In this document: positions 899 to 28,468 of the stretch, one piece after another | Layout: each line of letters begins with the position of its first letter | How positions within the stretch are numbered: the stretch's first letter is position 1 | NCBI GenBank assembly: GCA_022592445.1 | Contig: JABYQR010000213.1 | Coordinates: 16,032 to 80,031, forward strand | Origin: Cytidiella melzeri | Taxonomy: Eukaryota; Basidiomycota; Agaricomycetes; Polyporales; Irpicaceae | Length of the DNA stretch: 64,000 nt | Direction: 5' to 3' | Translations under genes and position numbers: made by a program | Notes under the pieces: model-generated | Told to the model about the DNA's origin: nothing | What the model saw: the letters and a program-made list of their open reading frames with translations, nothing else | Database searches by the model: none

Positions 899-902
<4 letters not shown>

Positions 903-2503: not shown

Positions 2504-2516
2504 TTACCCCCCTCCT
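2504..2516 (-). other. Polypurine tract of Gypsy-I
   Basis: On the minus strand the 13 bases just upstream of the 3' LTR read AGGAGGGGGGTAA. This is the expected position and composition of the plus-strand primer left by RNase H during reverse transcription. It fixes the orientation of Gypsy-I and the LTR boundary. Confidence 0.8.
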
Positions 2517-2521
2517 AAAAT

Positions 2522-5794: not shown

Positions 5795-5818
5795 TTGCTA
5801 ACTAAGATATTAGAAGCA

Positions 5819-7279: not shown

Positions 7280-7295
7280 CTCCCTGCGAACATGC

Positions 7296-7761: not shown

Positions 7762-7806
7762 ACTCAAGAAGAGATTGATGAACTTGAGTTACCTAAGGGA
7801 CGTTCA

Positions 7807-8931: not shown

Positions 8932-10659
8932 TAAGGAGGTGGTGAGGAGAGAAGAATGGGTTTGCAGTCAAGGACGGTGTTGTGGAAGGAGAGACTTCCA
9001 GGGTCTTGAGAACCAGCACTTGGCAGACCCCAGTGCGTATCCAAGCATCCAGAAGCAACGTGCATCTGTCCGTGGAAGAGTCTCATAGCTTGCACTACAT
9101 TCATGTGGGTGTGGCATAGTGCATCGTGTCCAACACGGTTTTGTCCTACGCTTCCTAGCCGTGTCATTGACAACTGGTCGCCCAAGTAGATCTTGACAGT
9201 ATGTAGGTACTCTGGAGAGGTAGTATTGTAAGCAAGCGCGTTGGAGATGGCATCAATCACGTCAGCATTCCCAACTGTGGACGACTTGTCAATATCCATG
9301 GCCGGTAGAGGATAGAATTCAGTTTTGTGCAAAGGAATTTGGTTCTCTGTCACCGGAAGGCTCTTGGCAATGTCATTGTGGAACCTTGAGAAAGATGGTC
9401 CGTCGTGAGTGACTACAATCTGCAGAATTGTGTGAGTGAGCACGGCAGGATACAGGGTGTTCTCTTGCTGAGTCAGCACTACATCCCGTACGCTGAGCTC
9501 TGGTGCTTTCTGCATAGTCTCGAGGAGGTTGGCTGTCTTCATGTCATTCTTGGCTGCCTCAAAAATACGGATAGCTGTGGCGCATGTACTGTATTCGAGA
9601 GAATCTTTGCGCCCAATGACTTGCTCAGCGGCTTTGAACAGGAGATTAATGTTGTCATAGACGTGTGATAGCTGGTGAATTCTGGCGGCTTGTTGTACAG
9701 TAATACAGCAGGCTTGAGAAAGGCGGCGGATGAGTCCAGCGTAAACATTTTGATGAGTTGAGGGAAGTGTAGTGGCAGTGGTAGACGTTGCTGTGGCCAT
9801 CTGGCTTGGACATTCCTGGCGGCTAGTGTGGGCGCATGTTTGTTTGGCCTCATTCCCACCAGTGCGCTCATCTTTGCCACCTGCACGCTTGTCTTCATTG
9901 TTGTCCCATGTTGTTCTCCACAATCCCACACTCACCTTCACCTTGCAGCTCCGCGTTACCCCCTACAACTTTGCCTCCATCCATGTTGCTCTTTACAACC
10001 TGAGGATCCAGTTCAGTGTTGACGTCTGAGCCTAACTCAGGCAGATCTTGGTCCTCAGAAGACACACTTGTGTTGTCAGGAATGTCAACGGTCTCACTAC
10101 TTTGGTAAGCCTTCTCTTTGCCTTTCTTGCTCTTATTGTCGTGGCTGGATGTTGACTTGGCTTGGCTTCCAGCTACTGTTGAATAGCTGCTGCAAACTCC
10201 CCAGGTAGACAAGACTGAGATTGTCTGCCGCTGAGTTCCTGTGGCATACAGGTAAAGACCAAACAAATGCTTTGACCAGCTGTTCTGCTGACTTCGCTGT
10301 CCAAGAAGCTGGAGAATTGCAGCAAGGCAGCGCTAATATCTCAAAATCAGTAAATGTTGTTATAGTGGTATGTGAAACTGTACCGTCTGCTGTCGTATGG
10401 CTGACTGTTTCTCAATATCTCAATGATTTTCCCACTCTCGTTCCTGACACCGTGTGGTGCTGAACGCGTGAATGACTTGCGACATGGTAGAACATAGCGC
10501 AGTCAATTGTTTATACAAGTCCTGCAGGTCGAACCCAAGCACAAACGACTCATCCACGGTTTTCTTGCGGGCATGCAAGATCTGGTTATTAATAATTGTG
10601 TTTCCCTCTTGGTTGACGAGCTTGCTGACGTACTGAGTTGCCCAGCAACGGACAGTATG
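8916..10659 (-). pseudogene. DUF6589 protein gene, C-terminal half
   Basis: The downstream half of a fungal DUF6589 gene; the upstream half is at 27781-28416. Reading from 10659: VRCWATQYVSKLVNQEGN, a probable intron region near 10300-10420, VCSSYSTV, then the conserved core VYDNINLLFKAAEQ, YPLPAMDID, GNADVIDAI, VKIYLGDQLSMTRL and DTHWGLPSAGSQDPGSLSFHNTVL. The first residues rejoin the N-terminal half in frame across GTATG when the intervening LTR is removed. The 3' end is cut at the Gypsy-II junction near 8920. DUF6589 has no known biochemical role; the family is multicopy in mushroom-forming fungi and behaves like mobile DNA (inference). Confidence 0.8.
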
Positions 10660-11008
10660 TGACATGGATAGTCCAACAGAGACCGGATTTTTCCAACAAT
10701 GTCACCAGTTTACAGCCTTAGGCGCCTATCTAGAGCGCTTATTTTCCGGCTAGGAATGTTACTGGACCTAACCCTAACCCGGGTCACGTGACATCCTGCC
10801 TTATTTATCAATAGTCCAGACCCAAACCCTAGACTCAATCTGGAGCGGTTCCAGATCAACCTAGGCTATTGTTCTATTGTTCTCCTTCCATTGTTAGGGA
10901 TTCCCCAGGGATTCCCCAGGGATTTCCCCAGTTCTTATTGTCTTATTGTCTTTTGTCTATTGTCTTCTGTCTATTGTTAGGGATTCCCCAGGGACTCCCC
11001 AGTTTCTA
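10660..11008 (+). mobile_element. LTR-A copy 2, left half (solo LTR split by 16.3-kb segment)
   Basis: Starts TGACATGGATAG directly after GTATG (10655-10659). The matching right half, 27362-27780, ends GCGACA directly before a second GTATG (27781-27785). Joined, the halves total 768 bp, exactly the length of LTR-A copy 1, and the sequence runs through the ATTGTTCT repeat block without gap. It is a solo LTR (no internal domain adjoins it) with a 5-bp target duplication, inserted in the DUF6589 gene. It contains CACGTG next to CCCTAACCC at about 10768-10790. Confidence 0.88.
10999..11008 (+). repeat. 10-bp direct repeat, left flank of the 16.3-kb segment
   Basis: CCAGTTTCTA here recurs at 27352-27361. 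An intact LTR-A has it once at this place (for example within copies 1 and 3), so the second copy looks like a target-site duplication made when the segment 11009-27351 entered the LTR. Confidence 0.75.
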
Positions 11009-11038
11009 CTAGCGTTAGCAGGGCCGGCAAGCGGCAAG

Positions 11039-11053
11039 TACGATTCCTGAAGA
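11039..11053 (+). repeat. Inverted repeat, left end of 16.3-kb segment
   Basis: TACGATTCCTGAAGA, a perfect 15-bp match to the reverse complement of 27323-27337. Both lie within about 45 bp of the segment ends. A perfect match of this length in two such short windows is very unlikely by chance. Confidence 0.75.
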
Positions 11054-11385
11054 CTTTATGCATTTCTCACAATATCATCAATATCAATGAATTTGAAATC
11101 TTACACAGGTATCTTAAGCACCACAACATGTATAAATTGCTACAGTAATAGTCAAACTGTGTTTTTCTGTTGCCAAAATGTTTCAGTTTACATCACTCAT
11201 GATTCCGTCATATTCAGTATGTCTACCTGTACTTATACCCTTGTGAAACCACAGATCTCTGTTATCACTTACTATACAGGATGTATAGTGATTTTTTCCA
11301 TAGTAAATGATGCCACGCAGTTTGTAATCATATCCGCTAACGTTCATGACATGTTGAAATCTGAAAACCAGCTCTTGCTCGTATT
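11054..11385. other. AT-rich spacer, left part of the 16.3-kb segment
   Basis: AT-rich sequence between the left inverted repeat and the Harbinger element. A plus-strand ORF from 11087 runs on into the Harbinger inverted repeat and has no recognisable motif. Nothing functional is seen. Confidence 0.5.
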
Positions 11386-11431
11386 AGGGTCGTTCAAAGT
11401 TGGCGCAGCTCCGCCGCTCGCAGCTCGCAGC
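11386..11431 (+). repeat. Harbinger copy 2 left terminal inverted repeat
   Basis: 46 bp identical to the reverse complement of 14401-14446. It contains GC-rich sub-repeats CCGCTCGCAG / CTCGCAG. The same terminal sequence, with substitutions, ends copy 1 at 1530. Confidence 0.93.
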
Positions 11432-11557
11432 ACCGGCTTTGCGACCGGCCCGGTGTGCGCTAAATGTACTTGGTAGTCACGGCAATGTAACGCAGCGACA
11501 ATTGTAATCAATTTTCTTTGCTTGCACTTCCTTCACCATTCTCAACCATCCTCAGCT

Positions 11558-12855
11558 ATGCCTTACACTCCATATCGCACAGAGATCACTCGAGCATACC
11601 TCCGGAGCATGCTGCTTCGGGAAATCATTAATCCTTCTGACAATCTTGAAGACGCTCTTATGCAGCTTCAAACTGATGTTGGCATTCTTGCCGCCGTCAT
11701 GCAAGCACGCTACCTTTGTGCACGACCTCCTGTCCTAAAAGTCCCCAACTTGCATCTTGCATGGGTGTATGCCCAAAGTCCTCACACTCATAACCGGTTT
11801 CAGAGCATGCTTCGTGTGTCTCCAGAGGTGTTTCAAACACTTTTGAACTTGATTGACGACCATATTGTTTTCACCAACAATTCCAACAATTCACAGGCAC
11901 CAGTGGAGATGCAGCTAGCTGTGACACTGTACCGTTTGGGACGGTATGGCAATGGTGCTTCAGTAGAGGACATTGCGAGAACCGCTGGGGTTTCAGAGGG
12001 CACAGTGGTGCTATATACTCAACGTTGCTTTGATGCTATTGAGTCTCTTCACGATCTCTTCGTTCAAAGGTTGACACCGGAGGAGAAGGAGAAGGAAAAG
12101 GTGTGGATGGATGAGCACTTAGGATTTCGTGGAACCTGGCGAAATGGCTGGGTGATGTATGATGGTACAATTGTTGCCCTCTTCTCAAAGCCAGGCCAGA
12201 ATAGTGATGCATACTACACTCGTAAGTGCAATTACGGACTTAATGTTCAGGTATGTGTCAAACCACAATGATATCCAAAGTCTTCATTCAATTCTCTCAG
12301 ATTGGAAACATCCCATCTTCTTTGCGGATTGTGGACTACTCGCATGGACTTGTTGGTTCCGCTCACAATGCAAGTACCTTTGAGCACACTGCTGCTGCAA
12401 AGTTTTCCGATTGGTTTTTTGAAGAGGGCGAGTTTGCATGGACTGACTCAGCATATCCTTGTAATGCAAGGACAATTCCTGTTCACAAGAAACCAGCATC
12501 TCTTCACCCACACAACAAGCTTTTTGATGCTGTTGTTGCTGGCTTTCGTGTCCGGTCAGAGCACTGCATGGGTGCTTTGAAAGGTCGCTGGCAGTGCTTG
12601 AGAGGACTCTGAGTTCCAATCCGCAATAACAACGAGCATTTGCAGGCTTGTTGCTGGATTACAATTGCAATTATTCTCCACAATCTTTGCATTGATGTAG
12701 AGGGATGTGAGAACATGGACAAATTTATTGGTGAACTTGCAGGACAAGAGGGCGGACAAGATGTTGGGGAGGCACAAGAGGAATTAGATGCTGCAGAAAA
12801 CAATAGCAAACGGCAGCAGCTAGTTGATGAACTTGTAGCTTTTAAAGCATTATAG
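11558..12855 (+). pseudogene. Harbinger DDE transposase, copy 2
   Basis: Two exons: 11558-12250 and 12301-12855, separated by a 50-nt GTATGT...CTCAG intron. The start is ATG at 11558 (MPYTPYRTEI). The N-terminal part has a helix-turn-helix-like stretch (VEDIARTAGVSEGTVVLYTQR). The catalytic half has MYDGTIV (first Asp), GSAHNAS where copy 1 has GSAHDAS, TDSAYP, and RVRSEHCMGALKG (Glu). The CGA codon of copy 1 (R in GLRVP) is TGA here at 12610-12612, truncating the last 81 codons. Both changes are CpG transitions. An active relative could still mobilise the element in trans through its intact ends. Confidence 0.9.
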
Positions 12856-12940
12856 ATGATTAAAGTTCAGGTATATAGAATATCTACATCAGAATCAAGA
12901 CAATTGTTGGGTATGTTGTATTCTACGCAGAAGAGCCAAC

Positions 12941-14229
12941 CTATTCATCATCAGATGGAAGTGGTCCATTCTCAGCATCCCATTCAGGAGAACCGTCACG
13001 TTGGGAAGGACCAGCAAGCTCATCTGAAAGACGAGGACGTTTACGAGACTCACTCGTTGAACTTGCAAGAAGCTCTTTCAGCTTCTTGCGGTACTCTTCA
13101 AGAGTCCAAACTCCTGCCCTGTACTCCTCAAGTAGCTGTGTGCGCTCAAAACGAGCATCTTCACGCCGGCGATGCTCAGCAAGGGATGCAGCGTTTTCTC
13201 TGCAACTTCATCAGCATATGCATGTTCACAAAAGACTGAACACACCTTGCAAAGTCCAAGAGCATAGCATCTATCCCACGCTTCTTGCTCACCGGCTGGA
13301 TAGAAGCCTGAAGACGTTCAAGCTTCTCAGCAGACATGTTGACAGAGGCCTTTGGACCACGACTAGAGTGCGGGGGAGCTGATGAGGGCACTGGTGATGG
13401 CGGACCATTGGTTGCGTCATCTCCAAAAGTGCGGAATGTAGGAGAGTTCGGAGCTGTATCAGGGGTAGGCTCAGGACGATTGTTGAGTGGCTGAAGATGG
13501 ATAGTACGCCTTCCCAGAGGTCCAATTCCTGTTGTGATGGCAATGGGAGTGATGTTTGGCCTCTCAGACAAGAGGCGGTGAAGAGCCGGAAAGAAGGGGA
13601 ACTTCTTTGTGATCTCTTCTGCAAAGAGTTGACATAAATAAGAATAGCAGTGCCAAAATGTGTGAACATACCCCATAAGTTCTTAGCCACCTCTGGAGTC
13701 TCAGCATTTGGACCCTCTGCAGGGATATAGTGCTTCAGAAACTCAGACCCATGTTCATCTGCTGCTTCCTCATCATCGTCACGAAGGCCACCTCCAGTAA
13801 CAACCAGACGAGCCTTCTGCTTCCTGTATGTCCTGATGAGCCTGTGAATTCAATTGAGCAGGTACATGGGAGCAGAGACCATGATGTTCAACACACCCTT
13901 CAAGCTTAGCCTTAATCTTGTTTGCTAGCTTTGCACCATCAAGCTCATGCAGCTCTGGAAAGAGAGCCTTCCCAATCCGACCATACACTGTAATTTTCCT
14001 GTCTCCACTTGTATTCTAATCAGTGAAATGGATCAGTATAGCTACTTGACCAATTTCCCGTGCCTCATACCTCATCAGCCTGCTTTCCAAACAGCACCTT
14101 CCGGTTTTCCGACTTCTCTGCAAGCTCCAGCAGCTGCCAGGTCATTTGCTCTTGCCAATCCAGCTGTGGGAAAGGCTTGGCCAGCTCCTTTACAGCCTTC
14201 TTCTTCCCAGCAGACACAGCACAAGACAT
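12941..14229 (-). CDS. Harbinger accessory protein (Myb/SANT-like DNA-binding type)
   Basis: The second gene of the Harbinger element, convergent with the transposase. My splice model has five exons (14229-14071, 14015-13897, 13841-13672, 13618-13246, 13199-12941) with GT-AG introns and an open 359-aa frame ending TAG at 12943-12941. The N-terminal region (LDWQEQMTWQLLELAEKSE ... KLANKIKAKLEGLIRTYRKQKARLVVTGGGL) resembles the trihelix/Myb-like domain of Harbinger partner proteins. The middle has ELFPF-like KKFPFFPALHRLLSERP, and the C-terminus is a charged coiled coil (LAEHRRREDARFERTQLLEEY). Such partners usually help transposase enter the nucleus and bind the ends (family knowledge). No stop or frameshift is seen. 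Confidence 0.75.
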
Positions 14230-14400
14230 AGTATGAGATTTGTCAAAAGAGTGTGAGATGTAAGGACAGTGAGAGGTTGAGTCTGTGCTACTCGAAGACT
14301 ACAGTAGACACGAAGCGCACCGACTGCGACGACGGCGACTGCGCTGTGACAGAATGTGACCACTTACGTTATATTCCGCTTTGGGGCAATTGACGCCCGC

Positions 14401-14446
14401 GCTGCGAGCTGCGAGCGGCGGAGCTGCGCCAACTTTGAACGACCCT
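14401..14446 (-). repeat. Harbinger copy 2 right terminal inverted repeat
   Basis: 46 bp, perfect reverse complement of 11386-11431, followed by the ATT duplication at 14447-14449. Confidence 0.93.
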
Positions 14447-16117
14447 ATTGTTGGGTAAGTGCCTCGCCGGTGCAACTCACACTACGCAGAATTTCCCGGA
14501 CTATACAGTTGATTGGGAATTCAACCTAGAAGTACCTACATCATGTATCTAGAACTTGTCTTCTCTTCTATTAAGTGGTTTACCTTGTCTTGCACGTGCC
14601 CAATCCTCACTCCAATAGTGCTATACACATTGCAATGAACGGCAGTGCGTGGTCAAATTTTTATATGTTCTCCATTATGCTGTGACAGTCACTGCATTTT
14701 CTTAGACTTTGTTCTCAATAGAGCTGTCATCCATGCAGAAGTAGTTGGATCATTACACATTTCTGCTTGATTTGCTTTATCTCTCCACGCAGACTTTGTA
14801 CATTGCCACATTAGAGAGTTGAAAAATAAGCTGGAAGATATATCTTCCTCACATAATATGCAGTATACAGTTTTGACAATATGGCTAACATCAGGTTTGA
14901 GTAGGAATTCACATAATTCTCTAACATTATTGCCTGTTGTACTGATTGAGCACATACTTGGATCTTTCCGATAAAACTCAAGCTGTATACGGTCTTGAGC
15001 TTCATCTATATCCTCTGAGTCAGTATCTACACCTTCAAACATGTCACAAAATATTTTTCAAATATTCATTTTTGTCGTTGATGTCAATTTATGCCATTCC
15101 TCTGGTGTATACCTCATGATGCTCAATATATATAGTGGACAGACTACCAAATGCACAGCTATATGCTTGACCATTCCATGAAAATCCTGTAGGACCATTG
15201 ATTACAGGTATACAGTCATTGATATTTTTTTCTGACATTTAGCAGGCCGGGTAGAAGTTTCCAGAGGTTCAGCTACTTCATGTCTACACTTATTATGAAT
15301 ACAAACACCTTCTAGCTTACTCAGTTGACTGATCTGTACAGTACCCTGAGCAGGAATATATTGTCTGGCATCAGTATAAACTCCCAATGGTTTTTTCTTG
15401 GTAGCTTCAGGTTTAAATGTATATTGTTTTGTTGGTCACAAGAACTGATAAGATCTTGATGCTGACCATCTTTGCTATGATTAGTATGATAAAAATCAAT
15501 GTTGCTCAAGAAGACATACTGCAAGTTCATGAGCACCACGGCAATATTGGAGATCTTCCCACCACTCCAGCGTAGATTTTCCAGACAACTCTCCATCAAA
15601 TAGGAATTCAATACACCAGTAAGCTTCAAGCTGTCATTTTAGCTCTAGTGATGCATGTAGGTGATGCTACTTAGAGTGTATACTAATAGTCATGCATACC
15701 ATCTTGCAGTCTTCATGAGTGCATCTCACAATGTATAAGGTGTTAGTTGTGAATGCAAGACAATCAGGAACTCAGGGTGAGCAAGAACTTGAACTTGAAT
15801 CACCCAAACATTGACTATATCATCAATTACCAGTTCATACCAATGAATACCAATACTAACCAATGCCAATACTATTAAATACATTATTATTCAATATCCA
15901 ACATGTGACATTGGTATTCAATGGTAATCATAAATACAGCCCAGTTGGAATATTTAATGCTATTTGCTAAGCACTACTTCCAGGGTAAAAAACTCCATCC
16001 AGCCCTTGCACTGAGGGCTTGTTGTTGATTCCATGTAATCAGACCTCTCAAAATCTGTAGCATTTATAACATTTGCCAACAATTATATGCATGACATTTT
16101 TGCTGGTCTATGCCCTC
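14447..16117. other. AT-rich region with decayed minus-strand ORFs
   Basis: No intact gene. Minus-strand frames at 15629-15321 (MKLTGVLNSYLMESC, KDGQHQDLISS), around 15230-15100 (NGPTGFSWNGQAYSCAFGSL) and 15042-14689 (MFEGVDTDSEDIDEAQDRIQ) may be pieces of one degraded protein broken by stops and shifts. The run of conserved-looking aromatic and Cys residues suggests a former element-encoded protein, but I do not recognise the family. Near 15830-15960 the sequence is rich in ACCAAT/ATTGGT inverted motifs. Confidence 0.35.
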
Positions 16118-16154
16118 GGTGTTACTTACATGTTACTTACATGTAAGTAACACC
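16118..16154. repeat. Short perfect palindrome (16-bp arms, 5-nt loop)
   Basis: GGTGTTACTTACATGT at 16118-16133 is the reverse complement of 16139-16154. It lies downstream of RPP40-like (minus strand) and could form a hairpin in its 3' flank. It may also be a tiny foldback element; no duplication was seen at its ends. Confidence 0.55.
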
Positions 16155-16468
16155 ATTTACTGCCACGTGTTTGTTAATATTGACTCACTGACAGAACCCT
16201 AGGTTCGAGACTAAAAACACCAGACATTCTTGTCCTTTGCTCCCAAAACAGGAAGGCAGCGCACGTGGCAGCGTGCAGAGGGTCAGAGACCGAGACTACT
16301 ATGCTAGCTATGGACGGAGCATTGCCTAGCCTGCCCCGCAGCGGCTCGCAATCGATGGCAGCCACATCTCACACCTTCAAAAATTCTGACGTCCTTCAAC
16401 AGAGCGCTGTAGAGCCAAGGTTAGCCATATGAGACATACAGGCTGAGTACCACAAATCCACTCGTTCA

Positions 16469-17810
16469 TCAGCCAAGACAAGAGTCCCATTTACCGATAG
16501 ACTCTCCCAACACCCAGTGCGTCGTCTGCAACCCATCCGTATCATTTCTCTGCAACACCAAACTCCAGGTATCCTCAGACTTGTTACTTGGCACTCGCTG
16601 CTGCTTTGCGGTGGTCCGGCTGTACGTGACGGGAGACTGGAGGATGGCATGTCCTGTTACTGAAATTAAAGGGATCGAGGAACTGTGACGGGACAACAAG
16701 CTTTTGGGGTACGTACTCGGCTGCTGAGACTGTGTCGAGGACTCTGCGCAGGAAGGAACGCGGGATGAATCCTTTCCAACACATGTGCACGAGGTTTCCC
16801 ACTTTTGAGGTTTCAGGAGGCTCGTAGACTGCGATGTATGGATCTGGATGATCGTTGGCTTGTAGTCTGAGTTGAAAGTTGCAGTTAAGGTGCTATGAAC
16901 TGGGGTCACGCCTCGCACTTGCCTTTCTGAGCCTAGACACGCCATACCGACCCACTCAAACAATGCAGACACCTCTTCCTCCCAATCCTCTTTGTCCTGT
17001 GGATGAGATGCGAGCAGAGGTGTCGGTATGTGCGCAGTACGTGTTATCCGTGTGATGGGGCATATTTCATGTCTGTCTCCTTCCAAGTTATTTGTATTTG
17101 TCTTGGCCTCGTGATGAAAAACGACCTCCCAAAGCCCCCTACGCTGGTCCCAGCTTTCGATTGAGTGTTTCAATTTGGAAGACAGCTGTGCCAGTTGCTG
17201 CAAAGAGATTCTATAGGCTGTCGAGATCGAATTCAAACTCACTAGAAACGGGAGCAACAGGCCCAAAGCTCACTCATGTTCCTTCCAAGGTAGTCGCGTC
17301 CCATCTCCGCTGCTAAACCTCTGCCAGGTGTCTTTTCCCATGGAGATCGACAGTGTTTCACTGTCAAAGTACCACGAATCGTCGTCATGAGGTCCAGGAA
17401 GGCCCACGGCTACCACCGACCTAGTAGCCGCACCTCAAATAAGCAATCCACCAACGTCAATCGTGCTGACACCCACCTATCGACCTCCTCCCCAGCATTG
17501 GTTTCAAAGCGGTACACCAGAGCATACTGTATAAAATCTGGCAGGCTCCATTGGCATCGACGGTATGTTGTGGTCAACTGATTCAGTCTTGCTTGGAGGT
17601 CCGAGTTGGTTAGCAGCGGGAACACAATGTCTATCTTCCATTTTTAGTGAGAAGGAGTCAAAGCAAGTGGGAGTCCACAGTCGGACGTACCTGCTGTGTG
17701 AATGGACGCGTTGAGACCAGCTTGTTGATGACATTTGTCTCTGAACGCGGCGAGGCAAAAGTCCCTGTAGTGTATAAAACCCTCTTGGGAGTTGGGACAG
17801 GTACTTTCAT
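16469..17810 (-). CDS. RPP40: RNase P/MRP protein subunit p40-like (RPP40 family)
   Basis: Nuclear tRNA-processing RNase P subunit of the RPP40 family. Six exons in my model (17810-17691, 17634-17477, 17420-17274, 17210-16923, 16866-16717, 16682-16469) give an uninterrupted 358-aa protein, close to the human length. Matches to the family are ALFEWVGMACLGSER (human ELFDWLGAV), YIAVYEPPE, GFIPRSFLRRVLD, and SVTGHAILQSPVTY followed by WSLVLQR. Intron 4 starts GC, not GT (GCAAGT donor), and intron 5 is only 34 nt. The start is ATG at 17810; a MULE lies 38 bp upstream. It originally shared a divergent promoter with panC. It looks intact. Confidence 0.82.
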
Positions 17811-17848
17811 ACGGTAACAGTAGGGTTCAGTATGGCGCGTGCCCGGTG

Positions 17849-18133
17849 ACTTGACGTTAATCTCCCACCCAATTGTCAGCACTAAACAAACTCCGCTAGG
17901 CGCGGGCTGATGGCGCCAAACCGAGGACTCGGCGCGGGACTTAGATGATTTTCAGAGTGCGGCAAGCCCGTCAATAGGTGTACAACAGGTTCCGCAGAAA
18001 TACATACGATAACAAAGAGTACATTTTGAGTCTATACAACTGATGCCTTGAGATACATAGGATAATAAAGAGTACAGTTCTAACATCATAACAAAGGGTA
18101 CATTTTGAGTCTATAGAACTGATGCCTCAGACT
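17849..18133 (+). repeat. MULE left terminal inverted repeat
   Basis: Matches the reverse complement of 22899-23184 with scattered substitutions. The GC-rich outer part (GCGCGGGCTGATGGCGCC) grades into an AT-rich inner part with repeated AACAAAGAGTACATTTTGAG units (two or three tandem-like copies), possible transposase-binding sites. Confidence 0.9.
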
Positions 18134-20361
18134 TTTGTGAGCTCCTCAACAGCTAGTCACATAGTAATCTTAGGCAATTACATAGGACAATAAATATAAT
18201 TGAAGGGTAAAATTTTCAGTATATAAGAGTGTACATATTCTAGTATATAAGTCTGTTACATAGTGTACAAAACCTTACTGATGGCATTGTGAATCTTCCA
18301 ATTCCCTCTTTCTAGTAAAGCACTATTCATGCCTCTGTCAGGCTCTTTGTTTCTTCTGTTTGCACTGCTCACATACTCACACATGTTTCACAGTGTAGCA
18401 TGGTTACTTATATTGCATTTGGAACAGCTCCCTTTCCCTTTTCCGGTACAGCTCTATTCATATCTTTGCCATGCTATGCTTCTGTTTCCTTGGTTTTCTC
18501 AACTTACGCAGGTTTTGTCTTCTGTTTGTGCCGCTTGCATGCTCATACATGTTTTGCAGTGTATCATAGTTACTCAAACTGGTTTAGAACAGCCTCTCCC
18601 AGACTGTATAAATATATGGGCCTCTGCCCTTGCAAACACCTCAAATCTTCCAATCTATCTCTGAGGTGTAAGTACTCTCTCAGTGTCTTACTTTGTACTC
18701 TTACTAATACAGTCTTTTAGCTGAGACTTGTGTCTTTATAGGTGAATACATACAGTGCATATGATCTATTTTTGAGGTCTGACCAGTTGTATATCATTAT
18801 TCTTTCACACAAGCTCTCAAATTTAAACTGTTAAAGCCAGAAGTTGTTGACATCCCGTGCTACAAAATTCAGGTACAAAACTCTTCAAATGCAATCAATC
18901 TTACAAAACTCATGTTTACTCAATTGAAGTCATATAGCTATGGCAACTACGCAGCTGTGCACCCGGTGCCATGTTGACAAAGAGCTCTCAGAGTTCCGGA
19001 GCCGTACCAAGGATGGTCAAGGTGGAAGAAAAGGAGACCCCACTAGCAAGTGTAATGCATGTATGACTAGGGAGCGTGACTACCGACAAAAGCGCAAACA
19101 GCCAGAAGATCATGTTGAGATTGGCAATGAGGATGCAGATGAACTTTCCTGGCAAATTAGCTCTGATACTCCTGTGGTTTCACTGCTCGAACTTCAAGCT
19201 CATCTAAAAGAATGTGCCGACCCAAATAGGCCACATTCGTTTCGATTTGCAATGCAAGTGGACTGCGCGAGCATAGCTCCTATTTCAATGGAGTCTCTTT
19301 TAAGAGCTGAGGAGCTAGCTAAGTTGGTGGGCATGAGCACTTTGTGGCGCTGGACGTAAGTGATTGAGGGACTTATTGCATACCAAACTGATTATTGTTA
19401 TGGTTACAGCCATGAGAAAAGCCGAAAGCGTATTCGCACAGAAGACACAGTCTATGGATTCAGTTGCGTACAGTCGGATGAGCGGGAACATAAACAGAAG
19501 GTTCCCAAGGGAAAGAGCCGCGACACAACCAGAATGGACCGCTTTTCATGTCATGGATGGCTGTTTATCACTGTTGCGCCTGATAGCCCGGTGATGACAA
19601 TAAAGATCAAGCACGAGGAAAATCACCATGCCTACATCGACCTTGCTCTTCCAGATAAGTGGAGAGAATACATTGAAACTCATGCTCGGAATCAGACTCC
19701 AAATCAGGTATGGGTATCACTTGTCTAGAGCAGTCCTGTTTTACAGTATGCCCTATAGATCTGGCAGCATATTCTCCGTGAGGAGGCGGCAACCAAGAAT
19801 GTCAACAACATAGACATCTCCTTCAAGGAGAAGTCTGTATATTACTACTGGCATGTCATCTGCTGTCAAGAGTGAAAACTTGATCCTGATCCCATTGAGT
19901 CGGCTCGGTTGTTTATCTTGGGTGGTGGCAACGAGCATCAAGTAGCCTTACTCAACGTGGAGCCAGCACCAGGAGTTTGGGTTGTTGCTTTCCAGGTCAC
20001 AGATTTCATGGATACATGTGGAAAGAGTACACGAGAGCTGGCAATGGACTTCACATGTAAGTCCTTCAATAACATGCATGTCTGGCTTTTACTTACATAT
20101 GGAATGAGTTGGCACAAATGGAAACAATGGCGAGCTCTTTGCTGCTGTTGCTGGTGTACAAGGCTCTGGCATACCGTTGGCATATTGCCTCATTCAGACC
20201 TCTGATGGTGCAGGAAAAGGAGCTAAAGAGGCCACACTTCGGAGCTTTTTGTATCAGCTCCGTAAGCTTGGTGTAAGCCCAGAGTACACGCTTTCTGACA
20301 AGGATTGGTCAGAAATCAATGCAATGCGCACAGTTTGGCCCCGTGCAAAACACCAGCTTTG

Positions 20362-21055
20362 TGTCACAGATTTTCGATGTTTCTACAAGACTTGCCTTAC
20401 CAGGCAACGGTATTATTGGAATATTTAAGCGCTTGTCAAGCACTTATCCAGCGCTTATCCGGCGTTTATTTAGGCGCTTATCCAGCGCTTATCTGGTGCT
20501 TATCAGGCACCTATTCCGGCGCTTATTCTCAGTGCCTATCAATTGATGCGCTGATGTGCCTCCTGTCTCTGATGTGCTGATGCGCTCCTTTCCTTATCTG
20601 TGTATCACATGATAGAACTCTCTGGAACATTGTGGAACATGCTGGAACTATGATGTCATAGTTCTTAGAACCTTCTGGAAAAGTCTAGCCTTGTCTTAGA
20701 ACAAGCTAGAACAAGTCTAGCCTTGGGGCTGGGTCATGGGGTCAGGTCATGGGGACAATTGATATTGGTTGATTATTGAAGTGGCACCACTAGGGCATAG
20801 GGCATGCTTAGTAAGGTAGATTACTTCGCTTACTCATGTAGGTATTAGGGGTCTTAGGGTAGTACCTGGGGTCCTCCCCTTCACGTATGTATAGAGGCAC
20901 TCCTGAGGGCATATCCCCTCAGTCTTATCCACTCTGTTGATCAAGGACTACTTCGTACTCCCCAGTACTCACTCTCACCAACACTCTACTCTCTATCTCA
21001 CTATCTCCCCTTCAAGTTTAACAACTATCTGGTGAGTGTAACCTTAACTGTTACA
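20362..21055 (+). mobile_element. Solo LTR, family LTR-B
   Basis: A 694-bp LTR starting TGTCACAG and ending CTGTTACA, near-perfect terminal inversion with TG...CA ends. The duplication CTTTG lies at 20357-20361 and 21056-21060. It sits between the codons of KHQLC and FWHAL in the MULE transposase and leaves that coding sequence otherwise intact. A truncated relative is at 1652-1735. No internal domain is present, so it arose by LTR-LTR recombination. The parent element family (Gypsy or Copia) cannot be told. Confidence 0.92.
20428..20545 (+). repeat. GCGCTTATCC minisatellite in LTR-B
   Basis: Around ten degenerate tandem units of about 11-12 bp built on GCGCTTATCC (variants GTGCTTATCA, GCACCTATTC, GCGTTTATTT). 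The first units are also in the LTR-B fragment at 1715-1735. A related GGCGCCTATC/GCGCTTATT pair occurs in LTR-A at about 10713-10745. Confidence 0.7.
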
Positions 21056-22898
21056 CTTTGTTTTTGGCATGCACTCCGGGCTTTGAAGCAGCGCCTCTCT
21101 AAAGTTGGGACAACTCCTGCAAGTTATGATCCCTCTGCTGCTCAGAAAGAGTTTTCATTCATTGAGAGCACATTTGTTCCTCTTGCACAACAGGCAGCTA
21201 CACAATGTGTAAGTCATGTGTTCTAAAAGTACACATTGTGATATTAATAAATACCAGATTTCACCACCCCCGGAAAAGCCCTTTGCACGTGTCAGACTTA
21301 CTGTTCAGGGTTGACCTCTTCCCATCACTGCTGCCATTCCAAAAATCAAACTCCCAGCTCACACCTCTAAGTCCATCAGTCAAGAAGATGACAGCACAGG
21401 TGGTGAAAGTGACAATGATTCTGATGCAGGCACATTCTGGGGCAGTTCTAAATGGAAAGATGATGAGTTCCATATTTTTGCAAAAGATGATGAGGAGGTT
21501 GAGGAAGGAGAAGAGGAAGATGGATGGATCAGCAAAAATAGTGATGAAGGTGTCTTTGGTGATGAAGAAGATGTGCGCCATGAAGTCTACAGGTTTGCAC
21601 ATGGGACCAAGGATCTTGATGCCGAGGAAGATGTTGAGCTGACAGAACATGGGGAAAGGAGCAAAGACAAGTCATACATCTTCTGTCCCCTTCCTCACCG
21701 ACTTCCAATCTTGCGCTTGTTTGCTAAACATGCCTCACAGCACTCTCTTTTACCTGAACAACATGGCCAGGCACGAACAGCTGAATTGATCTACCGGGAT
21801 GCAGTGACTGAAATGTATAATCATTGCAAGATCAACCGCCTATGTGAGGTGTGGGCATACCTTTGGAACTCTTGGTACTCACCAGAGAAATGGCCACTAT
21901 GGGCACGGTCAGCTCATGGCACCAGCATTCCAGTCCACCGGACAACAATGATGGTAGAAGCTTTGTGGCGTAACCTCAAGCACCTTGTGCTGAGAATGTT
22001 CAACCGGCCTCCATTGGATCTGGCAACATACGTTATCATCACACGATCAATTCCTCCCTATCGTCTCACCCTCAGAAAACTTTGTTTCGACCGTGGAGGA
22101 GGACGCCAGAAGACTCTTACTTACATGCAAGTTGCCTTGAAGCGTGCCTGGAAGCGGCTCCTGGAAGCTCCCATCAATGGTACCTATACAACCAACACTA
22201 CTCTCTGGACATGTGACTGTGGTGCTCAGAAATATCATGCAAATTTGCTTTGCAAGCACCTGGTCCAGGCTGTGGGACCCGTAGATCCTTCCTGGTGGTC
22301 AACAATCATTCGCCGTCACCAACCACCATTCTACTTGTTACCAACAGAAGGCACTGCTGCCAGTCCACTGCCACTTGAGGCTGAACGTCCTTGGCTCAGT
22401 GACTCAGATGCAGAGGTCAATGATCTGCTCGATTCAAATCCAACTTCAATTCAGTCATCACCCAACAAGGCACCAGCAACAGGCCAAGATGGCCTTATGC
22501 GTACCAGAGCAGGTGGGGGTGCTGGCTTTGAGGTGAGCAGCACTATTCTATGCTGACTATCAAACAACATACTGAATACACTTTGCATGTTAAGCTTGAC
22601 GATGAAGAGGAAAATGAGATCAACAAAAACATTGATCTTATTGCTTATCTTGCGCAAACACTACGAGAGCAAGGAGATAACACAGAATAGCTGAAGTGCA
22701 TCATGCCGAAGCTACGCCCTGCTGTTGACCTTGCACGACAGGTACAGCAACACGAAGCTCGTCACACTATGCCTATCACCAATGGTAGTAGTCGCAATCG
22801 GCAATCTTTACCTCCAACTCTCATTGGGTACCGCTATCGAGCAAGTCCAGACATTTCACGCACTGCTTCGAGCTCCAAACAGCCCTCTACACAGCCTT

Positions 22899-23184
22899 AG
22901 TCTGAGGCATCAGTTCTATAGACTTACAATGTACTCTTTGTTATGATGTTAAGAATGTACTCTTCGTTATCCTATGTATCTCAAGGCATCAGTTGCATAG
23001 ACTCAAAATGTACTCTTTGTTATTCTATGTATTTTTGCGGAACCTGTTGTACACCTATCGACGGGCTCGCCGCGCTCTGAAAATCATCTTAAGTCCCGCG
23101 CCGAGTTCTCGGTTTGGCGCCATCAGCCCGCGCCTAGCGGAGTTTGTTTAGTGCTGACAATTGGGTGGGAGATTAACGTCAAGT
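22899..23184 (-). repeat. MULE right terminal inverted repeat
   Basis: 286 bp, the inverted counterpart of 17849-18133, followed by the 9-bp duplication TGCCCGGTG at 23185-23193. Confidence 0.9.
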
Positions 23185-23193
23185 TGCCCGGTG

Positions 23194-23556
23194 TAAGAAC
23201 CGAGCTGTAGGTGGTAGTACCTAGTACAGGGAGTGTGTCCGAGTTCGAACTGTGAGGGCACGAATTGAAAGTATGCGCGGGGGTGACTGTAGCTTTCCAA
23301 GGTGCACTGAATCTTGGCGGAGCGTGCGGAACTCGGATGTGTGTCCTTGTAGGTCCACCATCGAACCATCAACTCTCTTTCACGACCTACCATGACTCTG
23401 CTATAGGACTCGTCCCGCGCGATTTCGCCTCTCTCTCGTCGTTCTCCTTCTCGTATCTGTATCCGACTCTATATGCTGTTGTCGCGCTGCCGACACCTCT
23501 CAGCCTCAGTCAAAACAGCGTATTACCCTCGAGCCGGATCGTCGCCTGGACGCACG
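23194..23556 (+). promoter_or_regulatory. Remaining part of the RPP40/panC divergent promoter
   Basis: Before the MULE inserted, about 400 bp (this stretch plus 17811-17848) separated the two divergent start codons, so they probably shared a bidirectional promoter. Almost all of it now lies on the panC side, with a CT-rich stretch upstream of the start (CTCTCTCGTCGTTCTCCTTC) of the kind common near fungal transcription starts. RPP40 is left with 38 bp of original upstream sequence plus the MULE end. Confidence 0.6.
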
Positions 23557-24731
23557 ATGTCCACCCAAGCAGACGACATCCAGGTTCTCGAGTCCATCGC
23601 GGCTTACAGGGAGTGGAGGAAAAAGGCATACGAGGAAAAGAAGTCTGTCGGGTTCGTGGCGACGATGGGTGCTCTACATGAGGGTCACGCTTCACTCGGT
23701 ACGAAGAGCTTGATACTTCGTACCGCACACCCATCTAACTCTTCTTTTTTGCAAAAGTTCGTAAGTCGCTAGAGAGCAACGACCTCACTGTCGTCTCTAT
23801 CTTTATCAACCCCGCCCAATTCGCCCCGCACGAAGACCTTTCAACCTACCCCCGCACACTCCCGCACGACCTCGCCGTCCTACGTTCCCTCTCTGTTCCC
23901 GCACTCGCACCTCTCTCCCAGTCCGGCCTTCCCATCACCCGCACTCCCAGTGCCGTCTTCCTCCCCTCTGTCCGCGACATGTACCCCTCCGGCATCTCGC
24001 AAGACGTCTCCACCGAACAGGGCACCTTTGTCGAAGTCAAAGGGTTCAGTCACCAGATGGAGGGCACGACCCGTCCGACGTTCTTCAGAGGCGTCGCGAC
24101 GATCGTCACAAAACTATTCAACACCATCGAGCCCACCCGCACATACTTTGGACAGAAAGACATCCAACAAGCTTTACTCCTGCGCAGACTCACCCGCGAC
24201 CTGCTCATGTCGCATCCGACACCTGACAACTTGTTCATCGTGCCCACAACTCGGTACGTTCTCTTTCTGCCTTTTTGGTTTCCTTCCAACAGCCTATTCT
24301 AACAAAAATCCAGTGACACGGTAACAAACCTGGCGCTATCCTCCCGAAATGCGTACCTCACCCCGCACGAACGCACCCACGCCGCGCCCACACTGTATGC
24401 TGCGCTTCAAACCGCCCGCGCCGCCTGGTTGTCCGACTCCCGACACACCAAACGCGAGTGCGTGTCCCTCGCGCTGGAGTTGGTGGAGAAGCAAAGGGCG
24501 AAGGAGGAGGAGATCACGTTGGATTACCTGGAGATGAACGACCCGGAAACGTTCGACGTGCTCGACGACGGTCTGGATCGCGCGCGTTGGGAGGAGGAGG
24601 GGAAAGGGAAGAAGCCTGGAAGACCGGTGATATTAAGCGGGGCGATGTGGGTGGGGAAGACGAGGACGAGATTAATCGATAATTTGGTGCTGGGGGATGC
24701 TACGTCTTTGGGTATTTTGGCCAGTAAGTAG
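23557..24731 (+). CDS. panC: Pantoate--beta-alanine ligase (pantothenate synthetase)
   Basis: Makes pantothenate from pantoate, beta-alanine and ATP, for coenzyme A synthesis. Three exons (23557-23698, 23758-24253, 24314-24731) with GTACGA/GTACGT introns encode 351 aa. Family motifs: MGALHEGH (ATP-binding HxGH), [23 protein letters not shown], and LALSSRN. Near the C-terminus it has a fungal-type acidic/lysine-rich insertion ([10 protein letters not shown]). An in-frame ATG at 23473 would add 28 residues rich in Arg/Ser with no acidic residue ([20 protein letters not shown]), a plausible mitochondrial presequence; I kept the internal ATG as the core start. The gene looks intact. It is convergent with the HMG-CoA synthase remnant, 296 bp away. 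Confidence 0.93.
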
Positions 24732-25027
24732 GACCTAGCTACAGTCCATGATACCCACTATGCATCAAATGGTAAACGGGTTCATGCCAAGGTTCAGTTC
24801 ACATGCGGTTTTTCTTAACGCTCAGAGTGGACACTCAATGATGGAATCGCAACTGGACTATTGATTATTAAACCGGAAACTAAAACCTCTGAGACAAAAA
24901 GACGGAGAAGATATGCTACGAGTACAAGAAAGCGAGTTGTGTATGTGAGATGCCAGTCTGAATGCAAACGGAGAGAGAAAAACCATGATGAAGCGAAGTA
25001 CAAGCCCCTTAGATCAAGGGAGAGCCC

Positions 25028-26245
25028 TTACACGGTCGTCGTCGTCTCCTTCGGCTTGCGCAAGTACTGTCTCCTATACTTCCCATCCACATGCTCGAGA
25101 TAGTACCCACCCGGCCAAATATTCTCCACCGACCCCTCCGGAGTCCATGTCTTTGACAGATGATGGTGCTCCCTCAACTTGAGCGCGTCGACATACTCCT
25201 GGCACGGGACAACCTTCATCTTCCCCAACCTCTCCACCAAATCAAGCTCGCGCCTAATCCGAGACGTGTCGCCCTTGACTTTGATGGTGAAGAAGCTAGA
25301 GGCGAGGCCACTGCCATACGCGAACATGCTGATGCGTTTCCCGAGGAACTCCGCAGGTTCGACGCTCGACACGAGCGAGGCGAGTCCGCCGTAGAGCGAT
25401 GCGGTGTACATGTTCCCGCACCGTCTCGAGCACTTCATCCCGAGCTCGACGTGCGAATCGAATTGGGGCTTGGCGAGCCCAATGAAGGTCTTTTCAAGGG
25501 ACTTGTCGAGCAGGGATTCTTTATAATCTTGGGAGAGGACGGCGGAGGGGTTGGGGACGGAGGCGTATTTGGGGTGAGTGGGGTTTGAGATGAAGTCGTT
25601 CCAGACGAGACGGCCATGCGCCTTTTGCACCATTTTGCCGTAGGGGCTGTGGAAGACGGGGTAGTCGACGTCGTCGAGGGAAAAGACGGGAGCGTCGCTG
25701 CCGGCTTTCTTTGCCCTGAGCGCGTGCTTCTTCTTGTAGGTGGTGTAGGCGGCGTCAACGGCGGAGGTGTAGGAGGTGATGGAGAGCGGACCGTCGACTT
25801 CTGGGTACTCAGAGTCGAGCTTGGGCTTGTAAAAATCGTACGCATGGACCATATGTGTTCCGTGTACGGCTGAAGTTCATCTCTGAGGTTAATTAAGGTA
25901 TGTGCAAAAGGAAAAGACACTTACGTTCGAGAACGAGAGGTGCATTTGGGCCGATGAGCATCGCGCAGGCACCAGCACCACCAGACGGCCTCCCTGGGCC
26001 CTCAGTGTAGATGGCAATGTTACCGCAGACGACGAGCGCGTTACGGCCGTCCCAGGAGGAGGATTCGACCCAGTTAACGGCGTTGAAAAGGGCGGCAGTG
26101 GAGCCGTAGCAGGCGTTCTTCGAGTCAACACCCTCGATGTCAGTGTTGCCTGCGAGGCAAAGAGATCCATGAGGAAGGTCTTGGAAGCCTTTGAGAGGTC
26201 AACGTTCAACGTTCAACGGCGGTCTCGGTGCCTACGTCGAAGCTT
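25028..26245 (-). pseudogene. HMG-CoA synthase, 5'-truncated and frameshifted copy
   Basis: The C-terminal three quarters of hydroxymethylglutaryl-CoA synthase (mevalonate/ergosterol pathway, ERG13 type). Good matches: [16 protein letters not shown] (catalytic Cys), [28 protein letters not shown] (catalytic His), NMYTASLYGGLASL, and GSGLASSFF. One clean intron at 25870-25924 is retained. The 5' end stops at DVGTET near 26240, so the N-terminal domain with the catalytic Glu is missing. The frame is broken by a 14-bp insertion, GAACGTT twice, at about 26200-26213, and by an indel near 26150. A translation from ATG at 25852 would be open but lacks the active site. Probably a gene fragment. Confidence 0.85.
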
Positions 26246-26325
26246 CCTTGTCGGAACACCGCGATTTTGTGGTACCACAGTTCGCGGGCACTGCAATGAG
26301 CAACTCGGTGCTGACAGGCAAGAGC

Positions 26326-26385
26326 TTACGTCCTCTTTCGAACAAGACGCGCAGAAACGCGCGTCTTGTTCGAAAGAGGACGTAA
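26326..26385. repeat. Perfect palindrome with 27-bp arms, 6-nt loop
   Basis: Arms 26326-26352 and 26359-26385 are exact reverse complements, beginning TTACGTCCTCTTTCG, with loop AGAAAC. It lies about 80 bp beyond the point where HMG-CoA synthase similarity ends. It has the form of a miniature foldback element or of a palindromic repair scar. Confidence 0.8.
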
Positions 26386-27322
26386 ACGTGATTACGTGCG
26401 CTCCGAGGTCAATGGGGTGAGTGGACAACAATGATGGACACGACTTACTGTGTTTCGGTGCTCTCTGCATCACCCACCCCTCTACCAACATTATCTCGTT
26501 GTTCTACAATTGTTGTGTCAGTGGTACTGCTGACCCCACTGTTGTTGTTGGGACTTAGCTTCAACGAGTCGCTCTCTGATGCGCAATGCCAATATCTCAA
26601 CTTGGGGGACTGCTTGATGCCCCCGCCGCTCCCTCACCAGCCAACAGCACATCCGCTCACCCATCTAACAAATACCACACAGAACTTGACAGGGCTTGTC
26701 CACGCTCAAATGGAGGATATCAAGGTGCAGACGGAGCTGATGAGAAAATGGGAGGAGAGGGACAAAGCTCCAGCTTCCATGCTTGTCAGACAAGGATTCG
26801 CAACTGTCTTTGCAGGTGAGTACCCTAGTGTGTTATGCAGTGTCCCGGCCCGATGCGGCGGCAGCTGCTTGCAAACTATGTGACTGGTACAAACCGGATA
26901 GCCAACAAATCATGTGATAACCTGCAAGAAAAAGACCAGCGGGGTTTCAAACGGAGTCTGAGAAACTTTTATCAGTATATTGACTGTATATCCCCAACGT
27001 TGGGTTCATCCAAGAAGATTTTCATGTCTGTGTGTTGCTGAAGGGCAGGACTATCTGATGATGTAAAATTTGTGTCTATTCATGTACATGTGTTCAATAC
27101 AAAAAACAAAAACAGAGTGTTGATGGGAGATTCAGCTCATCACACGCATTTGTAGAGTGAATAACAGAGCAAATGAAACACCATCAAATCATTACACCAC
27201 ACTGTTACAAAATTTGTTACCGCATGTATTACCCCATCAAATTCCCACAGTTTGGGGGACAAAAAGGTCACATCTGAAAAAGCATCAATGCGCTGGCGCG
27301 AACTGGAACGATTCTTCTTCAT
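26386..27322. other. Region without recognised gene, right part of the 16.3-kb segment
   Basis: A plus-strand ORF at 26431-26883 (150 codons) begins with a hydrophobic segment (STIVVSVVLLTPLLLLGL), is rich in Pro/Leu/Thr, has two NT[QN]-type glycosylation-like sites and ends without a known domain. It could be a decayed small secreted or membrane protein, but no homology is recognised. The remainder to 27322 is AT-rich with no ORF of interest. Confidence 0.35.
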
Positions 27323-27337
27323 TCTTCAGGAATCGTA
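27323..27337 (-). repeat. Inverted repeat, right end of 16.3-kb segment
   Basis: TCTTCAGGAATCGTA, the perfect reverse complement of 11039-11053. Only 14 bp separate it from the 10-bp direct repeat at 27352. Confidence 0.75.
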
Positions 27338-27351
27338 ATTGTTCTATTGTT

Positions 27352-27361
27352 CCAGTTTCTA
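27352..27361 (+). repeat. 10-bp direct repeat, right flank of the 16.3-kb segment
   Basis: CCAGTTTCTA, identical to 10999-11008. LTR-A sequence continues from here without loss. Confidence 0.75.
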
Positions 27362-27780
27362 TTGTTCTATTGTCTTATTGTTCTAGCTCTATTGTTCTAC
27401 GTACCCTGGTCTTTGACAGCTACCCTGGTCCCTTATTGTTCTATTGTTACTCCAGCCCCACAGTTACTCCAGTCCCTAGTGTGGGAACTTGTGCACAGAC
27501 CACCCAGCCACAGTATATATAGTAGCCCTTACCCTCCCTAGCTCTGCATCTTGACCTCTCTGTCATTTGCACTGCTAGGTGAGTTACTGCATGTAACTTA
27601 GTATCATATCTTATTAACTCTGTCATTTGCACTGCTAGTATCCGGCCTTTGAGCCTGCTTGCCTGCTCATCATCGACTTTGACCTCGTTGTCGTCGTTGG
27701 AGATCCACTTCCACTTCCACTCCCTCCCCTCTCTACCCTTGTTTAGGGTTTAGTAGTATAGCAGCAGTTGCTCCGCGACA
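27362..27780 (+). mobile_element. LTR-A copy 2, right half
   Basis: Continues the LTR-A sequence from where 11008 stops: ATTGTTCT repeats, then GTATATATAG (TATA box, about 27513-27522), a tandem TCTGTCATTTGCACTGCTAG pair (about 27558 and 27617), and the terminal GCTCCGCGACA. It is followed by GTATG (27781-27785), the partner of 10655-10659. The downstream region from the TATA box is the likely start of the R region. Confidence 0.88.
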
Positions 27781-28416
27781 GTATGCCTCCCTCCGTTCCG
27801 CAAAGACACCCAGTGATTCAACACACATTCAACGCATGTCGTATCACTGAAGAACCCGTACCACCACCTGGCCCCCTGCTTCATGCTGGGGTCAGACATG
27901 TACCCTATGAACTCACCCCAGGTGACTGATTGTTCATTGAGTAGTGCGAATATATCTTCTGCAACATCTTTCATGGCAATCTCTATCCTTTGTGGTGGTG
28001 TAGCTGCGGTGGCATCAGCTAGGTTGTTATGGTCATGGTAAAGAGCATCAAGTTGTCCATTTGGTAGAGTTCTGGGAGAGCCATTGGCGGCACTTTGCTG
28101 ATAGGAAAACAGAGGCGGAAGCAGAGGTTCGTAGTATGTGTAGCTAGCACAAGCTGCCTTCTGGGCTGCCAGTGTCTCCAGTCGTTTTGCTACACCAGCA
28201 GCTCTTCTTTTGTGCGTTTAGGAGTCCAGAATAGCCCGTCGCTCAAGGGTTCACCACCATGGTGTTCTTGGTGTCGAGGAGGTGTAGTTGGGTCGACAGG
28301 CACACAACGGTGAAGACGGAGGAAGCAAAGACAGCGGAGACAAGGGCTTTGGTATATCCATGTTGTGGTGGGCTGAAGGGCTGAGCCGAGCATTCTCTGC
28401 ATGCAGTGTAGGCCAT
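27781..28416 (-). pseudogene. DUF6589 protein gene, N-terminal half
   Basis: The upstream half of the gene whose remainder is at 8916-10659. The likely start is ATG at 28416 (MAYTACREC). A frame break near 28215 (TPKRTKEELLV, then KRLETLAAQKAA in another frame) and probable stops show decay. The clear part is DVAEDIFALLNEQSVTWGEF, SMKQGARWWYGFFSD, CVLNHWVSLRNGGRHT, similar to the N-terminal region of DUF6589 proteins. At GGRHT the frame meets the solo LTR; across it VRCWATQYV follows in the same frame. It is divergent from the RecQ-like gene with 52 bp between start codons. Confidence 0.7.
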
Positions 28417-28468
28417 TGCAAATTCCTTTGTGCTTGACTCTTCTCGCTCACTTGCTCAAATTTTAGTC
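28417..28468. promoter_or_regulatory. 52-bp bidirectional start region between DUF6589 and RecQ-like genes
   Basis: The two divergent reading frames begin only about 52 bp apart, so their promoters must overlap each other and probably the coding sequences. No TATA box is evident. The tight head-to-head pairing suggests that the two genes belong to one unit. Confidence 0.45.

Follow-up and report, generated by a model that had tools for sequence, protein, structure and literature searches.

A probable non-autonomous Helitron2 transposon with a copied block of host genes in Cytidiella melzeri

We studied a 64,000-nt stretch of the Cytidiella melzeri genome (C128:16032-80031; in the following the window), in which a 16-kb segment sits inside a solo long terminal repeat (LTR) that in turn interrupts a DUF6589 gene. 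With a probability of about 0.93, this segment is a non-autonomous Helitron2 transposon inserted at a T of the LTR, whose ancestor took up a copy of the ~4.7-kb host block RPP40-panC-HMGS (HMGS for HMG-CoA synthase) and spread with it. The sequence set is one genome assembly of 49.7 Mb in 731 contigs; C- and L-numbers denote its contigs and loci (C128 is the contig of the window), and plain coordinates refer to the window. The nested insertion and its junctions are described as they appear in this assembly.

Insertion site and element ends

The element, its termini and the interrupted sequences are located as follows.

11009-27337, minus strand: very probable Helitron2 element of 16,329 bp (end alignments, empty site, lengths)
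27323-27337, minus strand: 5'-terminal asymmetric inverted repeat TACGATTCCTGAAGA, within the 5' hairpin
11039-11053, plus strand: 3' repeat copy, separated by 30 nt from the 3' end
11009-11038, minus strand: 3' terminus with short hairpin GCCG-CTTGC-CGGC, then final CTAG
26846-27337, minus strand: 5' region common to many family copies (~96-98% identity in the best matches shown)
10660-11008, no strand: left part of the solo LTR (sequence and LTR alignment)
27338-27780, no strand: right part of the solo LTR (sequence and LTR alignment)
8916-9962, minus strand: DUF6589 domain (Pfam, 132.3 bits) of the host gene split by the LTR

The nested arrangement described in the initial annotation (segment in LTR in DUF6589 gene) is real. 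GTATG is duplicated at 10655-10659 and 27781-27785, i.e., directly outside of the LTR ends TGACATGG and GCGACA. Once the insertion is removed, the frame on the DUF6589 side rejoins as had been claimed (GGR to HTVRCWATQ), with a 223-aa open stretch across the rejoined flanks (1.9 kb of joined sequence). On the other side, a Pfam scan of 27786-28217 gave no match; the upstream coding part of the gene continues beyond 27786.

To the uninterrupted LTR sequence at the insertion point, AACAATAGAAAC, corresponds the empty-site pattern CAATAGAACAAN{0,3}AGAAACTGGG, which was derived from the LTR at this point and searched genome-wide. It has 254 matches, and 99 of the 100 matches listed read AACAA-T-AGAAAC (an extra A is found in 1). 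That is, the empty-site check that had been suggested shows a single T at the insertion point of uninterrupted LTR copies elsewhere in the genome. The filled site is AACAAT(element)TAGAAAC, such that there is exactly one additional T, duplicated or part of the terminus, and one border T (11008 or 27338) can be assigned to either side of the element. Since the empty LTR leaves no room for it, we reject the formerly proposed 10-bp target duplication CCAGTTTCTA; the respective stretch 27338-27361 is ordinary LTR sequence. When the LTR halves are joined with one shared T, 703/768 aligned positions agree with the intact LTR (23 gap columns), compared to 682/755 (26 gap columns) for the join implied by the 10-bp duplication. 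Given the one-T join and no 10-bp duplication, the reported agreement of the summed LTR halves with the 768 bp of the intact LTR-A is a coincidence, as the halves total 791-792 bp. The LTR type hit by the element is very common (254 pattern matches) and is also found at 2166-2187 and 32998-33019 of the window. At least three element copies are located inside this LTR type, namely those of the window, C9 (flank and pattern match) and C5.

On the minus strand, the element begins with TACGATTCCTGAAGAATGAAGAAGAATCG at 27337 and finishes with TCAGGAATCGTACTTGCCGCTTGCCGGCCCTGCTAACGCTAG at 11009; without its two nested insertions it has a length of 7,920 bp. The 15-bp inverted repeat (11039-11053 and 27323-27337) is perfect, as annotated. 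A genome-wide search with both segment ends, also recommended beforehand, finds both of them at many sites. For the 5' end, 547 candidates were obtained, of which 40 were scored (97-100% identity); 30 of these begin at query position 7 or 8 (27338-27339). For the 3' end (388 candidates, 40 scored), 34/40 main matches stop at 11007-11008 (query 108/109). A 5'-end 35-mer with at most 3 mismatches has 384 genome copies (209 forward, 175 reverse), while the reversed 35-mer used as control has 0 matches in the same genome under the same threshold. Flanks were taken from L001-L078 with identical flanks counted once. Here, T precedes all 34 distinct 5' ends (GT 14, AT 13, TT 7) and follows 33/34 distinct 3' ends. 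Folding of the first 60 nt gives a 5' hairpin that includes the inverted repeat, and 37 of the 39 two-mismatch 5' ends among the matches listed in the 35-mer search show a paired change by which the stem is preserved. One of the two explanations put forward initially, a single chromosomal fragment captured by repair, is excluded by the recurrence of both ends at numerous unrelated sites.

The termini were compared with the Helitron2 definition (Bao and Jurka 2013, PMC3627910). The 5' asymmetric repeat lies 0-1 nt from the 5' end, depending on the placing of the border T (criterion 0-2 bp), and is part of a hairpin. The 3' repeat lies 30 nt inside the end and is followed by a short hairpin (criterion ~20-30 bp). 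There is no target-site duplication, i.e., the empty site has a single T, with one T ambiguous. The family encodes Rep (HUH) and a PIF1-type helicase, which are present in C605 and C364 but absent from the copy in the window. A canonical Helitron1 was considered and rejected: the CTRR 3' end after a hairpin is matched (CTAG), but the 5' end is (T)TACG rather than TC and the base before the T is G in 14, A in 13 and T in 7 of 34 cases. A large DDE transposon was likewise rejected given the asymmetric placing of the inverted repeats and no target duplication of fixed length.

Captured host genes and their donor locus

The cargo is a contiguous ~4.7-kb block from the host locus RPP40-panC-HMGS. 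Its parts, together with the remnant of the transposon's own gene, are listed below.

16199-17848, minus strand: RPP40-like gene of the captured block, broken through loss of 23 nt at 16689
23557-24731, plus strand: panC (pantoate-beta-alanine ligase) of the captured block, with 3 exons and an open 351-aa frame
25028-26243, minus strand: captured 3' part of the HMG-CoA synthase gene (PF08540, 303.3 bits)
14621-15432, minus strand: remnant of the family's Rep-helicase gene, C-terminal coding end (86-87% identity to L080 and L081)

Checking the copy number of the three genes, as had been proposed, revealed a separate native locus in addition to mobile copies. At this locus (C342, L091), RPP40 (-), panC (+) and HMGS (-) are located side by side, and window positions 16199-17848 plus 23185-26243 correspond to C342:98-4849. 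Among 14 genome matches of PF01154, only the one at C342 covers profile positions 15-67, i.e., the N-terminal part of HMGS. No element ends were found in the 8.5 kb of C342 read (at most 8 mismatches). For the native panC protein, identity is 77% with Irpex lacteus and 73-75% with Irpex rosettiformis and Trametopsis cervina (among the best 120 of 7,998 scored candidates).

The window's panC is intact as annotated (351 aa, both introns GT/AG), and HMGS is indeed broken, being truncated by the capture junction (near 26243). RPP40, which had been called intact, very likely is not: relative to the native gene, 23 nt of its C-terminal coding part are missing at 16689, and its Pfam match ends at profile position 239 instead of 285. 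The right capture junction is identical in the window, C5 and C421, and the left one is the same in the window and C5.

With PF02569, panC is detected at 15 loci, C342 and the window among them, which leaves 14 mobile copies as a lower bound. Alignments pass the right junction in 10 of them (window, C5, C421, C595, C222, C433, C20, C385, C108, C184); that of C284 ends at the contig end, and those of C173, C179 and C52 stop earlier, at 25685. Both element ends could be located for 5/14 (C128, C421, C108, C20, C433), where the end assignment of mobile copies rests partly on the best 100 of the 384 5'-end matches.

Rep-helicase genes of the family

The initial annotation recognized no transposase inside the segment; the Rep-helicase remnant at 14621-15432 had been missed. 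Fuller versions of the gene are found elsewhere. L081 (C605) has a 553-aa PIF1 helicase frame (83.4 bits) along with the family's 3' end; DUF6570 matches lie upstream of the helicase, and the Rep part has stops. L064 (C364) shows PF14214 with 126.9 bits within an open 1,413-aa frame, carries the HUH-like motif LTLHMHMLIWL and is 99% identical to L081 over 3.6 kb; the helicase matches of this contig are at C364:30414-32058. By DNA, five PF14214 loci match L081 (C605, C364, C57, C86, C625), while the PF14214 loci L061, L062 and L065 have no DNA match to it. A protein search with the helicase (1,627 proteins, best 120 listed) indicates many relatives, with a top match of 53% identity over 95%; the named ones are from basidiomycetes.

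The C-terminal extension of the Rep-helicase (L081:990-1634, minus strand; window remnant 14621-15432) contains NGQTYSCAFDSLFTII, which presumably resembles a cysteine-protease motif. A Pfam scan of this extension in L081:990-1634 gave no match. Animal Helitron proteins with deubiquitinase domains have been described (PMC9741609).

A probable second cargo

Gene capture by this Helitron2 family probably recurred, since an ICMT-like gene is present in a further element. This element, L080 (C539), is complete with 9,051 bp (77-9127) and has the ICMT-like frame (PF04140, 47.7 bits) upstream of the helicase. Also upstream is a G-alpha-like fragment, whose 34.7 bits are below the Pfam cut-off of 48.8. 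The ICMT-like protein has 25 genome matches, with at least 90% in C539, C731, C206, C494, C272 and C454. The match at C206:18097 (95%) is flanked by other ICMT-like frames and is likely the native copy. In C731, the copy lies between a family 5' end and the helicase, those of C454 and C494 are upstream of family helicase matches on the same strand, and for C272 the nearest 5' end among the matches listed lies on the other strand. Clusters of ICMT-like genes are seen at C206 (~8951-30189) and C203 (~19284-32021), which are the probable source of the second cargo.

Weighing of alternative explanations

The element is, in outline, the large non-autonomous DNA transposon with gene cargo suggested initially. 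It does not represent an undescribed class, given its Helitron2 termini and the Rep-helicase of the same family in the genome. That is, a giant cargo transposon of a new kind with ~10-bp target duplications is next to impossible: CCAGTTTCTA is indeed present near both sides, but the borders at 11008/11009 and 27337/27338 are conserved in many copies, the two inverted repeats are placed asymmetrically and the empty LTR offers no space for such a duplication. We consider it very improbable that the element is a Helentron, i.e., Helitron2-like with a C-terminal endonuclease. The T-type target and subterminal repeats resemble Helentrons (PMC4067079), but no Pfam endonuclease is found in the C-terminal Rep-helicase parts (L081:990-1634, L080:8034-8546), and the surveyed fungal proteins also have none according to PMC5148889. 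Several observations weigh against the Helitron2 capture reading itself. Only one end was located for 6/14 mobile panC copies (C5, C284, C222, C385, C184, C173) and none surely for another 3 (C52, C595, C179). Among the loci read, no family element combines both ends with an open Rep-helicase, as L081 is without a 5' end and L064 without either end in the stretches read. Furthermore, the left flank of C342 beyond the junction has only 97 bp, which is insufficient to judge, and one of the 34 3' ends (L038) is exceptional with CTAT followed by A.

Under the Helitron2 reading, the solo LTR would first have interrupted the DUF6589 gene, with the Helitron2 inserting later at the T. The ancestral element would before have lost most of its Rep-helicase gene, with the host block and short flanking filler in its place, and would have spread to at least 14 places, presumably moved in trans by the Rep-helicase of relatives; rolling-circle movement by Rep-helicase is established for Helitrons (PMC5148889). 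As to how the block got in, the location of the cargo, with the 5' region on one side, the Rep-helicase remnant on the other and filler at both borders, makes us lean towards internal break repair or template switching over read-through beyond the 3' end. In this sense, repair may still have been the route of the cargo's first entry into the transposon. In both elements read (window and L080), the cargo follows the common 5' region and precedes the helicase gene. A composite, in which host DNA between two Helitron copies or beyond a bypassed 3' end moved as one unit, is possible but rather unlikely. Read-through and end bypass are published capture routes of Helitrons (PMC5148889, PMC4289320), but there is no internal 3' end before the cargo, and its position 5' of the Rep-helicase remnant, the border filler and the similarly positioned L080 cargo do not fit.

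Decay and possible exchange of mobile panC copies

The 351-aa panC frame is open in 5/14 mobile copies (window, C5, C108, C184, C284); C179 lacks the first 81 nt and is otherwise open, and 8 copies are broken. Together with a ratio of nonsynonymous to synonymous divergence (dN/dS) of 0.32 between the native and the window gene, this would be in favor of selection maintaining mobile panC as an additional functional gene. We nevertheless regard this as improbable, since pairs of broken copies also show dN/dS values of 0.41-0.48 and private mutations in mobile panC fit neutrality. In a spectrum-matched test, the 36 private changes of the five open copies comprise 10 synonymous, 26 nonsynonymous and 0 stop changes, with 12.0, 23.1 and 0.9 expected, respectively (P=0.82 for so few nonsynonymous changes). 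Neutrality also fits the 99 private changes of seven broken copies (P=0.80). Purifying selection, as one might read from pairwise dN/dS values of 0.3-0.5, was rejected on the same grounds. CpG sites account for 58/145 private changes (13 mobile copies), while CpG makes up 19% of the coding sequence. Such an excess is as expected of methylated, decaying repeats.

Native-to-mobile synonymous distances range from 0.03 to 0.19 (13 mobile copies, C433 left out). In its panC-HMGS part, the window copy shares 98% identity with the native locus and C5 and 94-95% with C108, C184, C284 and C421. RPP40 of the window, in contrast, is 98% identical to C108 and C184 and only 93% to the native gene. The panC nucleotide tree groups native, window and C5 with support 0.99. 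The contrast between native-like panC-HMGS and diverged RPP40 suggests that the panC-HMGS part of the window copy was acquired by gene conversion or re-capture. In a comparison with four outgroup proteins, the native gene keeps the outgroup residue more often than older mobile copies, e.g., 27 vs. 3 for C222 (17 undecided). For the 6 differences between native and window panC, outgroup residues are found 2 vs. 2 times (2 undecided), which favors neither direction of the exchange. It is an improbable idea that mobile panC provides a working extra dose of vitamin B5 synthesis, where exchange with the native gene keeps some copies open while others decay. If true, transposon and donor gene would stay coupled by recombination.

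Relation to known systems

A Helitron2 with host genes is a known kind of element; the donor locus still being present makes this case unusually clear. Gene-capturing Helitrons of maize and bats likewise amplified captured pieces of host genes, mostly fragments. A literature search, mostly of titles and abstract openings, returned no report of panC or RPP40 on a Helitron. One article, on a mite genome (PMC7738191), mentions both Helitrons and pantoate.

Like Helitron2 (PMC3627910), the element has asymmetric repeats (5' at the terminus, 3' ~20-30 bp inside), a repeat-containing 5' hairpin, a 3' hairpin, a 5'-terminal T and no target duplication, as is true for most Helitron2 elements. It differs by its target, which is a single T after G, A or T and not TTTT, and by its host gene block. 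FoHeli of Fusarium oxysporum (PMC5148889) shares fungal Helitron2-type termini, the lack of an endonuclease and insertion beside T, but its terminal sequences differ; its 27 putative captures were judged of little importance by the authors. HELPO1 and HELPO2 of Pleurotus ostreatus (PMC4289320) are basidiomycete Helitrons with a CT[A/T]G 3' end and extra genes, for which capture as filler DNA was considered. The cap genes of HELPO are described there as without copies outside Helitrons, whereas a native donor locus is present here. Both fungal Helitron studies (PMC4289320, PMC5148889) contain little on host-gene capture with known donor. Fungal Helitron1 and Helitron2 elements with TET/JBP (PMC12730594) also have a host-type gene aboard; it is thought to serve the transposon, while panC, RPP40 and HMGS are housekeeping genes without evident use to it. 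Helentrons have also multiplied captured pieces of host genes, namely histone fragments (PMC4067079). These are mostly fragments, in contrast to the contiguous block from one locus with a whole, intron-containing gene found here.

A single genome contains the donor locus, the junctions of the capture, 14 descendants that differ in age and probably a second cargo. Donor, junctions and descendants together therefore render the capture route, decay and mobile-native exchange measurable. For gene counts, it follows that those of panC, HMGS and ICMT are inflated by transposons in such genomes.

Nested transposons and filler

The remaining features of the segment are two further transposons and two filler stretches.

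11386-14446, plus strand: Harbinger-type transposon nested in the element (DDE_Tnp_4, 59.5 bits; ATT on both sides)
17849-23184, plus strand: MULE nested in the element (PF10551, 29.0 bits; 9-bp duplication TGCCCGGTG)
15433-16198, no strand: filler between Rep-helicase remnant and cargo
26244-26845, no strand: filler beside the HMGS junction, common to C421 and partly to C5, C20 and C539

Both transposons had been correctly named in the initial annotation. The Harbinger-type element has 53-bp inverted repeats; the MULE has inverted repeats of ~290 bp and its duplication TGCCCGGTG at 17840-17848 and 23185-23193. Both blocks are absent from C421 (L079, element 74-5725) and C5 (L090), i.e., they are later insertions nested in the Helitron2. 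The C421 copy is additionally without 14980-17217. The filler stretch next to the HMGS junction includes a palindrome at 26326-26385 (arms of 27 bp), and related sequence is found in both orientations at L080:3124-3247, adjoining the L080 cargo.

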